Source: Udeniomyces pyricola
Lineage: Eukaryota; Basidiomycota; Tremellomycetes; Cystofilobasidiales; Mrakiaceae
NCBI GenBank assembly: GCA_039545295.1
Contig: BCIK01000034.1
Location: 62,001 to 126,000 of the forward strand
DNA length: 64,000 bases
Reading direction: 5' to 3'
Both the position numbers and the translations under genes were made by a program. Below the pieces are notes generated by a model. That model was given only the letters and a program-made list of their open reading frames with translations, was not told the origin of the DNA and ran no database searches. How positions within the stretch are numbered: the first letter of the stretch is position 1; each line of letters starts with the position of its first letter. Below, piece by piece: positions 7,263-56,911 of this stretch.

Positions 7263-9431
7263 TTAAACTCGGTTGTAGTGAACATCCTCGATCTGGGCAT
7301 CCTCGAGTCCGGCCTTCTTCTCCTCGTCGGTCGAGCCAGTCTCGACACCGGCGCCAGAGTTGGGGATGTAGTCCGTCGCCCGCGAAGCGGCAAGTCGGTC
7401 GATGTAGGCCTGCTCAGCAGTTCGGGTGAACTTCTTGCCCTTGGCCATCCAGCACCAGGCAGCAAAGCCGGCAACGTACAGGAACGCCGGGAACGAGAGC
7501 CACATCGACACTCGGGTGTTGTAGGCAACAGCGATGGCACCCTGGACAGGAGGGCTGAGAGGAGAGGAGAGGAGAGGACAGAGTCGGAGTCAGAATTGGA
7601 GCTGGGAGCTGGATACAAGTCCAAAGCGGAAGTAGGACAAAGGCAGGATGGATACTCACAAGATCGCACCACCAGAGACACCCATGACAAGGATACCAGC
7701 CGCCCGTCGAGTGTGTCGGCCAAGTCGCTCAGTCGAGAGAACAAAGATGACAGGGTACATGATGGCCATGCCGGCGTAGACGAGCATGAGGCAGATGACA
7801 CCACCCGTACCGTGCATAGATCCGATGAGCGCAGTGAGGACGGCACAGATCGCGGCGTGGACGAGAAGGAGGAACGAGGCGGAGAACACGGTGAGGAGAG
7901 CAGTCGAGACGAATCGGAAGACGCTGTAGCGGAGGAGAGAAATATCGAGGAAGATGTGCGAAGGCAGATCAGCCGGCAGCTCTTGTATGGACGAGAAATG
8001 GAAGAGGCGACAAAGCGTTGACTCACGTGAAGATGATGAGGGAGTAAGAGAGCATGTTGGCGGCTCCGGCATCAGAGAATCCACCGTTCTCGGAGGCGTA
8101 GTTGATGAAGAACGATCCAATGGTAACCTGAGCACCGACACTAGAAAGACAAACCAGTCCAAGTCAGATCGGCTGACCAGCAATTTCAAAGTATTCTTGG
8201 TTGAGGAGAGAGGATACTTACTACATGAACTGGCAAACAGCACCCAAGATAGGTCGGAGCTGCTTGTAGAAAGGCTTGGCGAGCTGAGGGTCGGAAAGTT
8301 CACCAGTAGCCTCGGCAACAGCGTCCTGCTCGATCTGAAGCTCCTCTTCAGAGACCTCGGGAAGCTTGGTGATCATGAAGAGNACGGCGACAAAGACACC
8401 GAGACCGGCTGTGAAGGAGCAGAGAAACAGAACGTAAAGCGTGAGTCACGAGTATGCGTTTGAAACCCCACGACGCCAACCAGAAGCAGGTCACTCACCG
8501 ACAGCCATGTAGACGAATTGGACGTTGGTCAAGTTGTGCTGGTTGGCACCGGTGAAGAAGTACTTGGACGCAATGAGGGGGCCGGTGAAGGAGGCGACAC
8601 CGTTCCAAGCCTGCGAGAACTGCAGTCGGAAAGCAGCAGGACCGGCGGGAGGCATCGTCGAAACATAGGAGTTGGCAGAGACCTCGAGCGTGGCAAGACC
8701 GCAGGCGACGACTGTGCAGAGCAGGCAGCAGAGCAGGGAGCAGACCGATCAGTCAGTAAGATAGTATGTGGCAGGCACGACAAGTCGAGTGCAAGTCGAA
8801 ACGCGAAACGGCTGCTTACCTCCAGTGCAAACAACAAAGCCAGCAAACGTCGCGCCCTTGTTGTTGGCCGACAAGAAGTGAGCGACCGGCCAGAAAAGGA
8901 TGGCACCGAGCGAGTAGACTGTGGTAGCGAGAAGAGATCGAAACAAAGATCGTATGTGTGTTAGTCGGGCTTGGTGCTGGACAAGAGACATCGAAAAAAG
9001 ACAACTCACGAGAAAGACCCATGATGATCGTCTTCTTGTAGCCAAACCTCTTCATGACCTCGGCAGCGACAGGCGAGAACGCAAAGTATCCGATACCAAA
9101 GTACGCCACCTGGAGACCGGTCGACTGGAGCTTGGAGATGCCGAGGACGTTCTGGAAGTGCTTGTTGAGGACATCAAGGAGACCGTATGCGAATCTGAAG
9201 GTGGAGGATTGCCGATCGAAGGGAGAGACAAAGATGCCGCAGCGTCAGTATTGTGAGATAAGACAAAGAAGCGAACACTATCGGCGATCAAAATGCAAAA
9301 TGTCAGGTAACTCACCCCCAAAGGAAGAAGAGCGAGGTGACGAGGGCGTAAGGAACGTAGTAGCTGCGGGGCATGAAGGGACCCTTGAGGAAGCTCGTGC
9401 CAGGGGGAAGAGTGGTAGCACCGCCAGCCAT
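7263..9431 (-). CDS. MFS sugar permease, FucP (L-fucose/glucose-galactose) type
   Basis: This is a 12-TM major facilitator protein of about 500 residues with several introns. The ATG is at 9429-9431 and the stop at 7263-7265. The N-terminus after a short tail reads PRSYYVPYALVTSLFFLWG, followed by a G-x-L-D-V-L-N-K-H-F-Q stretch, which is the fucose-permease signature rather than the hexose-transporter signature. Later parts include QVAYFGIGYFAFSPVAAEV, NSYVSTMPP, SFTGPLIASKYFF and GIGxxFINYASE-like segments. The C-terminal tail is hydrophilic and acidic. It probably imports a sugar by proton symport at the plasma membrane; the substrate is not determined. Base 8383 is an N, but it is the third base of a GTN valine codon, so the protein is unaffected. 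A long plus-strand open frame across it (7155-8021) is a shadow. Confidence 0.88.
8383..8383. other. Ambiguous base (N)
   Basis: This is the single undetermined base in the window. On the coding strand it is the wobble position of a GTN codon (Val) in the MFS permease, so it has no effect on the protein. Confidence 0.95.
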
Positions 9432-50611: not shown

Positions 50612-53801
<3,190 letters not shown>

Positions 53802-54547
53802 AGTGAAGGGGGATTCTCAAAGAGCGAGCAAAGGACGGGGAGAGGGGCGCGGCGGGGGTGAAGAGGTGGGAAGTTGGCGAAAGGACAGTTCAAAATCTCG
53901 ATTCTCTGACAAGGCGGGCGGGGCGAGCCATGACTCACTCGTTTGATCACTCATCATGACTCGCAGTGACCCAACAGATGCATTTTGTGCATTTTGTGGA
54001 TTGTGCCTTCAAGTGCCCTCCACCTGAATTAAATATTATTAAATAGTTCAATCATCATCCTGCCATCAGTCACCGCCAGTTGGCCGACCATCTCACTGTT
54101 CACATCATACATGCATCACAACATATATATCCTCATACTATCGATTGGTTTGCGGTTTGGCTCGCAACGATCGTTCATGGACAATTCTATGCGCCATACA
54201 TATATTCATACGTCGTCGCTGGTCTCTTCCAATCTGTTTGCCGAGATTGTCATCGCTTAAACTACATATCTATAACGTTGGGTCGTCTATTGTTACATGG
54301 AAAGCACGTCAAGGGGTCGGTCGTGGGTCTTTGAGCTCAGGCTTCAAGGGAGCGAGGATCGAAAGGCCTCTATTGGCCTCGATGGTACGTCGCTTCACCT
54401 TCTCTTCTATCCCCTCCTCTCCTTCCGCTCTCTTTCTTCCTCTCTCTCTCTCCCTCTTTCTTTCTCCCTCTCTCTCCCTCTTTCTTTCTCCCTTCCGCCC
54501 CTTGGACCGTTACCCACGCAATGTGTACGCTTGCCAGCCGTCACATT
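53802..54547. other. Intergenic region between homocitrate synthase and the aminotransferase
   Basis: It holds the homocitrate synthase promoter and the aminotransferase 3' flank. A short gcattttgt duplication lies near 53979-53998. A pyrimidine-rich direct repeat lies at about 54440-54492. No gene is seen. Confidence 0.5.
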
Positions 54548-56911
54548 TTACGCAACCTGGCTGAGCTCGCTCCGGGCCTGCCGGATGGCAACTGCCAAGC
54601 GTCGGAAACCCTCATCGGCCTTGTCCTTCGCGACAATCGAGAAAGCGACACGAAGCTGGCTGGACTTCCTTCCAGACGGGTAGAACGAGTGGCCAGGGAC
54701 AGCGAGGACACCTTCCGCAAGGGCTTTGGTCAAGGTGAAAGCCTCCGAGTCGAGAGGCGAGATGTCGATGAAGAGGAACATCCCGGCGACAGGCGAGACC
54801 TAGAGTGGGATGAGCGACGTGATGCATTGGTCAGTGCTGAACATGGCACGATCTCAGAGACGAACTGAGCAAAAACAACTCACCCAAGTAGCGATACCGT
54901 CCAAGTGCTTGTGAGCAAGCTCCTCGAACCAGATGCGTCGGTCGTCGTAGAGGATGGCAACTCGCTTAGCGTGCTCCACGAAGCCCTCAACTCCCCCTAG
55001 AAAGAGACAAAGCAATAAAAGCAATCAGTCTTAGCCCGGATGCCAAGAGAAAATCAATCTGACAACGCCACTCACATCGCTTGAGCAGCGACCAGACAAC
55101 GGCCTGAGCCATGCTGTTGGGCTGCAAGTTGACAGCTCCAGTGTAGGTATCCATAGCATCGATGATGCGCTTAGGTCCTGAAGCCCATCCCTATGAAGCA
55201 AGAAAAAACCGGCACAAATTGAGTCCAAGCACCGTAAGAACAAGTTGGCGAGAAAACTGTCTGGAGATCGTAGGGAGTATCAAGAACAGCAAAACTTACC
55301 AATCGAACACCAGATGAAAGAACCTTGGAGAACGAATCGAATCGAACAGTGAGGCCACCCTCAGGGATGACCTGCTTCTCAAGCTCAAAGTAAGACGGAA
55401 CGTGGTGTCGGGTCAACCAGTAGTAGGGGTCGTCTGTTTGATGTCACAACCATATCCGCAAGATTAGCCTTGGATTGTCAGGTCCGCACATTGAGAACAG
55501 ATAAAGGTAAGGAGAGGAACACGAACCCTCAATGATGAGAATGCCGTGCTCGTGGCAGATCTCGAGGATCTCAAGCTTCCTGCCAGCCGAAGCGGAGCAT
55601 CCAGTAGGGTTGCTGCCGACCGGGACAGTGCTGAAACACGAATTCGCCCATGAAAGAACAAGTCTTTGATCAGCACGCCCAATCTATGCTAACCGGTCAA
55701 GGGTTGAAACCACAAAATCCTCGACTCACTAGACCATCTTGGGCTTACGCAAGCCAGCTGGCCACTCCGCCATGACCCGTCGGAAATCCTTGGGGCAAAG
55801 ACCCTCGCGGTCGACCTGGACCTCGTGCAGGTTGCAATCAAGAATGCCAAAGATGGCAAGAACACCAGCATAGGCAGGAGACTCGACAAGGATCTGGTCT
55901 CCGGGAGCGATAAGAACGTGGAAAGCCTGGAAATGCGGGTGCATTGAAGAATGAGGAAAACATTGAGAAAGAGGATAGGATTGAGCTCAAGTCCTGAATG
56001 GATACATGCGGTCGTCTGCGAGGTCAGGTTTCCTTTAGGTGTACCAACCTTGGAAAGGAGATCCTGGCATCCACTACCAATGGTCACTCGCCAGCTGGGG
56101 TCAGACGCGTCTCGGTGGTGGGTCGACGAGGTGAAGGAGGTGATCCAGTTGTTCAGGGCCGGCAAGCCGCTCGTGGTGCAGCTGTTCTTTCGAGTCGGGT
56201 GGGAGAGCAAAGATATTCAGCTTTCAAGGTCGTTCCAGTATCAAGGAGGCTCCGGAGGTAATCTATAATCTGAGCTAGAGTACTGTACTAACTCTGTGAC
56301 AGACGGGAAGAGGGAACAAAAGGAAAACAAGGACAAATTGGGTGAGTCAGCCCGGTCCACTTGGTCAAATAATCATCGACTCGAATGCGACCACGTACAG
56401 CTAAGGGCCTGAACCATGTCGGCACCCTCAATCTTGATGTCAAGGCCGGGCTCTCCTGGGTGGTTGAGAGGAGCCTTGAGGTGGAGCGAGAGCGACTCGA
56501 AAGGGAAGGAGTCGGGGTTGGGCCGACCGGCGAGGAAGGAAATGACGCCGTCAGTCTCCAGAGGGAAAAGGCCTCGAACTACAGAGGTCAAGTGAAGGAA
56601 ATCAGTCAGTGTGCATACATGTTGTAGACATGAAACAATCTCCCAAGATCATGACATGAGAGCGAGGCGAGGCCTCGTGGCAGCTCAAGCAGACGAGAAG
56701 CAAACGAGAGAAGAAAGCGCAACGTACTGCCGTCGGGGACGGGCTTCAAAGCGATAGGGCTGAGGTACTGAGTGTAGTCGATGGGCATGCTAGATATGAG
56801 AGTGTTGCGAGGAATCTGTGTGAGGGCGTCAGGGACGTTGGCAGCGAAGAGTGGACGAGGACTGGTGGGGAGGATCGACGTTGACAAGGAGGCTCGGGGG
56901 GAAAGAAGCAT
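54548..56911 (-). CDS. ARO8: PLP aminotransferase, Aro8 / 2-aminoadipate transaminase (KAT II) type
   Basis: Class-I fold aminotransferase of about 500 residues. The start at 56909-56911 gives MLLSPRASLSTSILPTSPRP, a presequence-like N-terminus. A second ATG at 56786-56788 starts MPIDYTQYLSPIALKP and could give a cytosolic form. The family signature GVISFLAGRPNPDSFPFES is clear, followed by IEGADMVQALS, TTSGLPALNNWITSF, WRVTIGSGCQDLLSK, HVLIAPGDQILVESPAYAGV, VPVGSNPTGCSASAGRK, EDDPYYW and VRFDSFSKVLSSGVRLGWAS (PLP Lys in SFSK). It ends AFSIVAKDKADEGFRRLAVA and stop 54548. It may make alpha-aminoadipate for lysine synthesis, matching its homocitrate synthase neighbour, or act on aromatic amino acids and kynurenine. 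The ALS-to-CTTSG junction needs a one-nucleotide exon (56293) or a missing base. Confidence 0.9.
56293..56293 (-). other. Candidate single-nucleotide exon (A) in the aminotransferase gene
   Basis: The upstream exon ends CTT AGC T at 56399 (donor gtacgt). The downstream exon starts C TGC ACC at 56181 (acceptor gaacag). One base is missing for frame. At 56293 a lone A is flanked by a strong acceptor (tctgtcacag) and a donor used elsewhere here (gttagt). T-A-C gives Tyr at the position of the conserved Tyr in ALxY...GLP. The introns would be 105 and 111 nt. A base lost from the assembly is the main alternative. Confidence 0.55.

Follow-up and report, generated by a model that had tools for sequence, protein, structure and literature searches.

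Can a single nucleotide serve as a coding exon in a nuclear gene of a basidiomycete? The question is raised by an aminotransferase gene on the minus strand of the window, the 64,000-nucleotide stretch of Udeniomyces pyricola DNA analyzed here, in which two exons separated by 217 nt are out of phase by exactly one base. One-nucleotide exons are extremely rare, and this counts a priori against reading one into the gap. The analysis, made from the sequence, nevertheless led us to assign a probability of roughly 0.9 to the locus being a functional PLP-dependent aminotransferase gene of the KAT II/Aro8 type whose third exon is the one nucleotide A56293. The gene was drawn with ten exons, from 56788 or 56911 down to 54548, as follows.

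56728 to 56788, minus strand: exon 1, starting at the second in-frame ATG, with an upstream in-frame ATG at 56911
56399 to 56578, minus strand: exon 2, ending GCC CTT AGC T, in phase 1
56294 to 56398, minus strand: intron A, 105 nt, GTACGT...GTCACAG
56293 to 56293, minus strand: proposed exon 3, one nucleotide, A, the middle base of a TAC codon
56182 to 56292, minus strand: intron B, 111 nt, GTTAGT...GAACAG
56049 to 56181, minus strand: exon 4, starting C TGC ACC ACG AGC GGC, preceded by AACAG and supported by homology
55730 to 55926, minus strand: exon 5
55527 to 55630, minus strand: exon 6
55300 to 55433, minus strand: exon 7
55076 to 55190, minus strand: exon 8
54884 to 54996, minus strand: exon 9
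54548 to 54799, minus strand: exon 10, with the stop codon TAA at its end

The phase mismatch that the initial annotation had described was reproduced exactly, in that the coordinates, sequences and lengths of the exons ending AGC-T (56399) and starting C-TGC (56181) were all as proposed, and the two implied introns were indeed 105 and 111 nt long. Direct joining of the flanking exons runs into a stop, the frame closing after 89 codons, and premature stops also arise on retention of intron A, intron B, or both. In-frame joining needs one base between an AG and a GT, the arrangement that defines a nuclear single-nucleotide exon, and the 217 nt contain AG-N-GT only once, where the single A at 56293 lies between a CACAG acceptor and a GTTAGT donor (upstream flank ...TCTGTCACAG; downstream flank GTTAGT).

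Counted from 56788 and with A56293 included, the predicted protein has 429 residues. It matched PF00155 at 97.8 bits, showing similarity to the family of KAT II/Aro8-type class I aminotransferases, and aligned with human KAT II along its full length (E about 1e-69 over residues 3-420). The exons other than that of one nucleotide are open and have GT and AG borders, which, together with the full-length match, speaks against a decaying allele, that is, a real frameshift in a gene spliced with a single intron, from which the full enzyme is not made. A fresh frameshift would also look like a one-base phase mismatch, but the assembly contains no second close copy of the aminotransferase gene, and the one-nucleotide exon would restore precisely the required codon; we consider decay of this allele very improbable. 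At the other end of the model, initiation at the in-frame ATG at 56911 (56789-56911, minus strand) would extend the protein by 41 residues, with Ser, Pro, and Arg abundant among them. This predicted N-terminal extension looks like a mitochondrial presequence, and our gene finder favored the start at 56911.

The codon that A56293 would complete is TAC, and its tyrosine had been proposed to fit the spacing of Aro8/KAT II enzymes, as it did. A homologue search scored 798 proteins and listed the best 120, which were aligned. At the position that the TAC codon encodes, all of these best 120 of 798 have tyrosine, and the region around it was free of gaps in 119. The strict motif A[LM].Y....G[LIV] was matched by 66 of the best 120 of 798, and a motif with a variable gap (2 to 7 residues) by 46, in every case with four residues in the gap; the remaining rows differed by substitutions, e.g., GLQY, with the spacing unchanged in the alignment. 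The sole exception to the gap-free stretch, P0005 from Filobasidium floriforme, comes from a gene model interrupted right after the equivalent tyrosine, and an intron, or a small exon overlooked in annotation, may lie at the equivalent position there too. The nearest protein among the best 120 of 798 came from Mrakia frigida (63%), a tremellomycete of the order Cystofilobasidiales. The tyrosine aligned with Tyr74 of human KAT II and is present solely if the one-nucleotide exon is included; Tyr74 is reported to stack on kynurenine from the other subunit (PMC6629613).

A second measure of the spacing came from the same genome, where a paralogue on contig C8 (L038; 35% identical) carries DALQYGAASGVP in one unbroken frame, with a TAC codon. 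Because the motif lies in one open frame in the paralogue, its spacing there is independent of splicing prediction. All eight of the aminotransferase loci L001-L008 were also scanned as length markers and were too distant, the C8 paralogue being used instead; three of these loci gave weak matches to the homologue profile (28.8 to 37.4 bits), and the models of L005 and L006 gave the same protein.

The ALTERNATIVES enumeration covered GT/GC-AG solutions with one or two introns, no intron being shorter than 45 nt and no middle exon longer than 60 nt, and yielded 612 distinct in-frame proteins. The product with the one-nucleotide exon ranked first among the 612 both by homology (587.3 vs. 581.8 bits) and by splice score (5.1 vs. 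1.5 nats). Single-intron solutions, which made up 26 of the 612 in-frame products, were all below it on both measures. Longer microexons in the interval were rejected as well, such as one of 4 nt at 56287-56284, which would use a GC donor and scored 581.8 bits in homology and -17.2 in splicing. The best one-intron product shifts the donor to 56394 (GTGGTC) and reads ALS-CT-CTTSGLP, which gives one extra residue and no tyrosine. This solution is in frame, free of stops, and makes a microexon unnecessary, but it scored 577.5 against 587.3 bits in homology and -11.6 against 5.1 nats in splicing, and it loses the Tyr seen in 120 of 120 aligned homologues (the best 120 of 798) while inserting a residue. 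Moreover, its GTGGTC donor scored lower than 84% of all GT dinucleotides in the sampled sequence, and an equally low score was found in only one of the 530 donors of the unfiltered model. Use of the shifted donor is thus hardly credible.

The splice scores came from a home-made gene finder trained on 264 kb, comprising the window and C1:400001-600000, about 1% of the 25-Mb genome, with splice models self-trained on introns that were predicted, none sequenced. In these data, Ns occur at window position 8383 and in 13 N runs of C1:400001-600000, where isolated Ns or short clusters of single Ns lie beside longer runs. Gene scores in the ab initio, enumeration, and error-simulation analyses used the unfiltered model, and the matrices for percentiles and shuffles used the same model with poor donors filtered out. 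Percentiles refer to 519 introns, the aminotransferase gene excluded.

On that scale, three of the four splice sites were ordinary or strong. Donor A (GTACGT, at the end of exon 2) stood at the 55th percentile and donor B (GTTAGT, after 56293) at the 37th, and the acceptor of intron A (CACAG before 56293), which had been called textbook, lived up to that description at the 95th percentile (79th on its last 20 bases). The acceptor of intron B (before 56181) was weak, at the 9th percentile and at the 0.8th on the last 20 bases. As had been claimed, GTTAGT is also in use elsewhere, 14 of 530 predicted introns having it as their donor. The donor consensus in the sampled genome is GTNNGT, with a strong G at +5 and T at +6, and among donor hexamers GTACGT ranks second in frequency, with 73 of 530 predicted introns. 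Over both strands of the 264 kb (528,000 strand-bases) AG-N-GT occurred 1,739 times, and solely at the 56293 site were both scores as good; none of the 37 internal AG-N-GT in 166 introns of at least 140 nt was as good either. Candidate branch sites were found in both introns.

56343 to 56350, minus strand: CTGAC (A at 56347) and, overlapping it, CTCAC (A at 56343), both branch-site candidates in intron A
56216 to 56220, minus strand: CTGAA (A at 56217), a weak branch-site candidate in intron B, located 35 nt before its 3′ end

The two candidates of intron A sit 53 (CTGAC) and 49 nt (CTCAC) from its 3′ end, are followed by a pyrimidine tract, and both rank among the top three 5-mers by enrichment near predicted intron 3′ ends in the sampled genome. 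Intron B lacks the CTNAY branch motif, as do 142 of 530 predicted introns in the stretch examined.

Ab initio prediction also selected the single base. Run without tiny exons, the gene finder reproduced the remaining hand-drawn borders, save for placing the start at the upstream ATG, and dropped the first part of exon 4 by jumping to a poor acceptor at 56110. When one-nucleotide exons were allowed, and with no use of homology, it picked A56293 with a gain of about 13.3-13.4 nats, under a model whose training took in the ordinary introns of the aminotransferase gene, and it retained A56293 even under a penalty of 9 nats. At zero penalty, two other one-nucleotide exons appeared in the 264 kb, with gains of 1.7 and 1.3, and both were gone at a penalty of 3. 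Across 59 intact genes the gain was at most 1.7, vs. 13.4 for the aminotransferase gene.

The main rival is an error of assembly or base calling, in which the genome has an extra base at an exon edge, one intron of about 217 nt separates the exons, and 56293 is no more than a position inside it. Such an error would produce exactly a one-base phase mismatch, isolated Ns are present in the sampled sequence, and a single 217-nt intron would be ordinary here, 13.3% of the 519 predicted introns being at least that long. Intron length, used as an argument in the Fusarium paper (PMC12940212), was therefore dropped, 217 nt being unremarkable in this genome. We simulated the error by deleting one base at either edge of 193 introns of at least 140 nt in other genes, 386 trials in all, and the gene finder placed a one-nucleotide exon in the affected intron in only three, with a top gain of 0.7 against 13.4 nats. 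The interval itself was also submitted to 20,000 dinucleotide shuffles. AGAGT with room for an intron of at least 60 nt on each side arose in 2,936 of these, an acceptor at or above the median together with a donor as good as that observed in seven, and an AG-N-GT reaching the observed summed acceptor and donor score in one. Under an assembly error, the complete 3′ splice module and good donor would have to be a coincidence of that order. Furthermore, neither exon edge (AGCTGTACG, AACAGCTGC) has a homopolymer of three or more, and the adjoining homocitrate synthase gene reads for about 400 residues without a frameshift. An error in the assembly is, in our judgment, improbable. The one-nucleotide-exon reading advanced in the initial annotation was supported, being the one picked by homology, splice scoring, the ab initio model, the enumeration of alternatives, and the simulated-error control.

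How such an exon would be spliced we infer from the signals and their spacing. The likeliest mechanism would be the removal of two ordinary introns in succession, intron A (GTACGT...CACAG) and intron B (GTTAGT...AACAG) each being recognized by intron definition. Removal would be successive rather than simultaneous, since U1 on donor B would have the AG of acceptor A within its footprint, and the two sites could hardly be occupied together. In the simplest order intron A would leave first, with AGCTA|GTTAGT then serving as the donor of intron B; by our hand summation of the matrix, donor B scores about 2.3 in this context (CTA|GTTAGT), vs. about 1.9 before removal of intron A. The resulting mRNA would read AGC-TAC-TGC, restoring the active-site tyrosine, and the predicted joint is AGCT-A-CTGC, as opposed to AGCTCTGC or AGCTGTAC-CTGC.

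Consecutive splicing of two adjoining fungal introns is also required in ascomycete stwintrons (PMC5639578, PMC6616335), in which one intron is nested in a splice site of another, and two adjoining intron-like units at one position are what is seen at A56293. In those stwintrons, however, no base is kept between the outer exons, and here the frame requires that one be retained. If a stwintron removed the entire interval, the exons would still be out of phase and the tyrosine still absent, making this the least probable of the readings considered, with almost no chance of being correct. For the one-nucleotide exon, an origin by intron gain one base from an existing donor fits the sequence, as would, by analogy, a cryptic AG-A-GT that rescued a lost base. 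Rescue by a cryptic site has been suggested for Fusarium CYP621A (PMC12940212), and stepwise gain beside an existing intron has been proposed for the mitochondrial one-nucleotide exon of Ophiostoma (PMC12308204). A fuller scenario, in which this is the first basidiomycete one-nucleotide exon, born when an intron was gained one base upstream of a donor already present, in an event akin to the origin of [D]-type stwintrons but with a sister outcome, and spliced by obligate two-step (recursive-like) splicing, is speculative and, taken as a whole, unlikely. In that scenario, failure of the two steps would give a premature stop, so that the exon could also switch the enzyme on or off.

The initial annotation knew of a single precedent, in Arabidopsis, and of none in basidiomycetes; the second part stood and the first was too narrow. 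There is more than one plant case, VPS55 (PMC8831610) being a second conserved plant one-nucleotide exon beside APC11, and a nuclear fungal one with RNA reads, in Fusarium CYP621A, was published in February 2026 (PMC12940212). No basidiomycete one-nucleotide exon was found in text searches of the literature, which covered main texts and few subscription papers. In a survey of one group of basidiomycete genes, the P450 genes of Phanerochaete, the shortest exon given is 6 bp (PMC1184071), and in passages from other basidiomycete papers that mention microexons the term appears just as an aligner option.

The closest counterpart is CYP621A (PMC12940212), likewise a nuclear fungal gene with a phase 1 upstream and a phase 2 downstream exon, in which the lone base is the middle of a conserved codon and an uninterrupted relative marks the length. 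It differs in belonging to an ascomycete P450, in having G (AGGGT) where the aminotransferase gene has A, and in being common to at least 20 orthologues and supported by RNA, whereas the exon here is predicted from sequence. Arabidopsis APC11 (PMC4674806) resembles the present case in that the frame depends on a lone A flanked by AG and GT, and its authors propose intron definition with sequential removal, as we do; it is a plant gene with a 422-nt interval, and its exon was demonstrated by cDNA and mutated reporter constructs, unlike the predicted A56293. The VPS55 microexon (PMC8831610) was similarly overlooked by annotation, but is conserved throughout the land plants and has been verified with RNA-seq and RT-PCR, in contrast to our prediction. 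Mitochondrial one-nucleotide exons are reported for placozoan cox1, and in Ophiostoma one A is kept between the two introns rnl-576 and rnl-577 (PMC12308204), as is predicted for the fungal gene studied here, although that is a mitochondrial rRNA gene with group II introns and no spliceosome.

The homocitrate synthase gene (50612-53957, minus strand) immediately follows the aminotransferase gene and shares its strand. Its model could be aligned to a solved structure for about 400 residues with one sizeable gap, a 15-residue insertion, which we take for a probable splice-choice error of the gene model. In fungi, lysine synthesis begins with homocitrate synthase, and 2-aminoadipate can be a substrate of KAT II-type enzymes; the two genes may form a lysine-pathway pair.

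If the one-nucleotide exon is real, the aminotransferase gene would represent the fourth nuclear gene family known to us with such an exon and the first that we could trace in Basidiomycota, with the exon lying within an active-site codon. One-nucleotide exons would then recur across distant lineages, and splicing in intron-dense fungi would be seen to cope with exons of a single base, which standard annotation is likely to overlook. The locus would also offer a tractable yeast system for studying the order of the two splicing steps.
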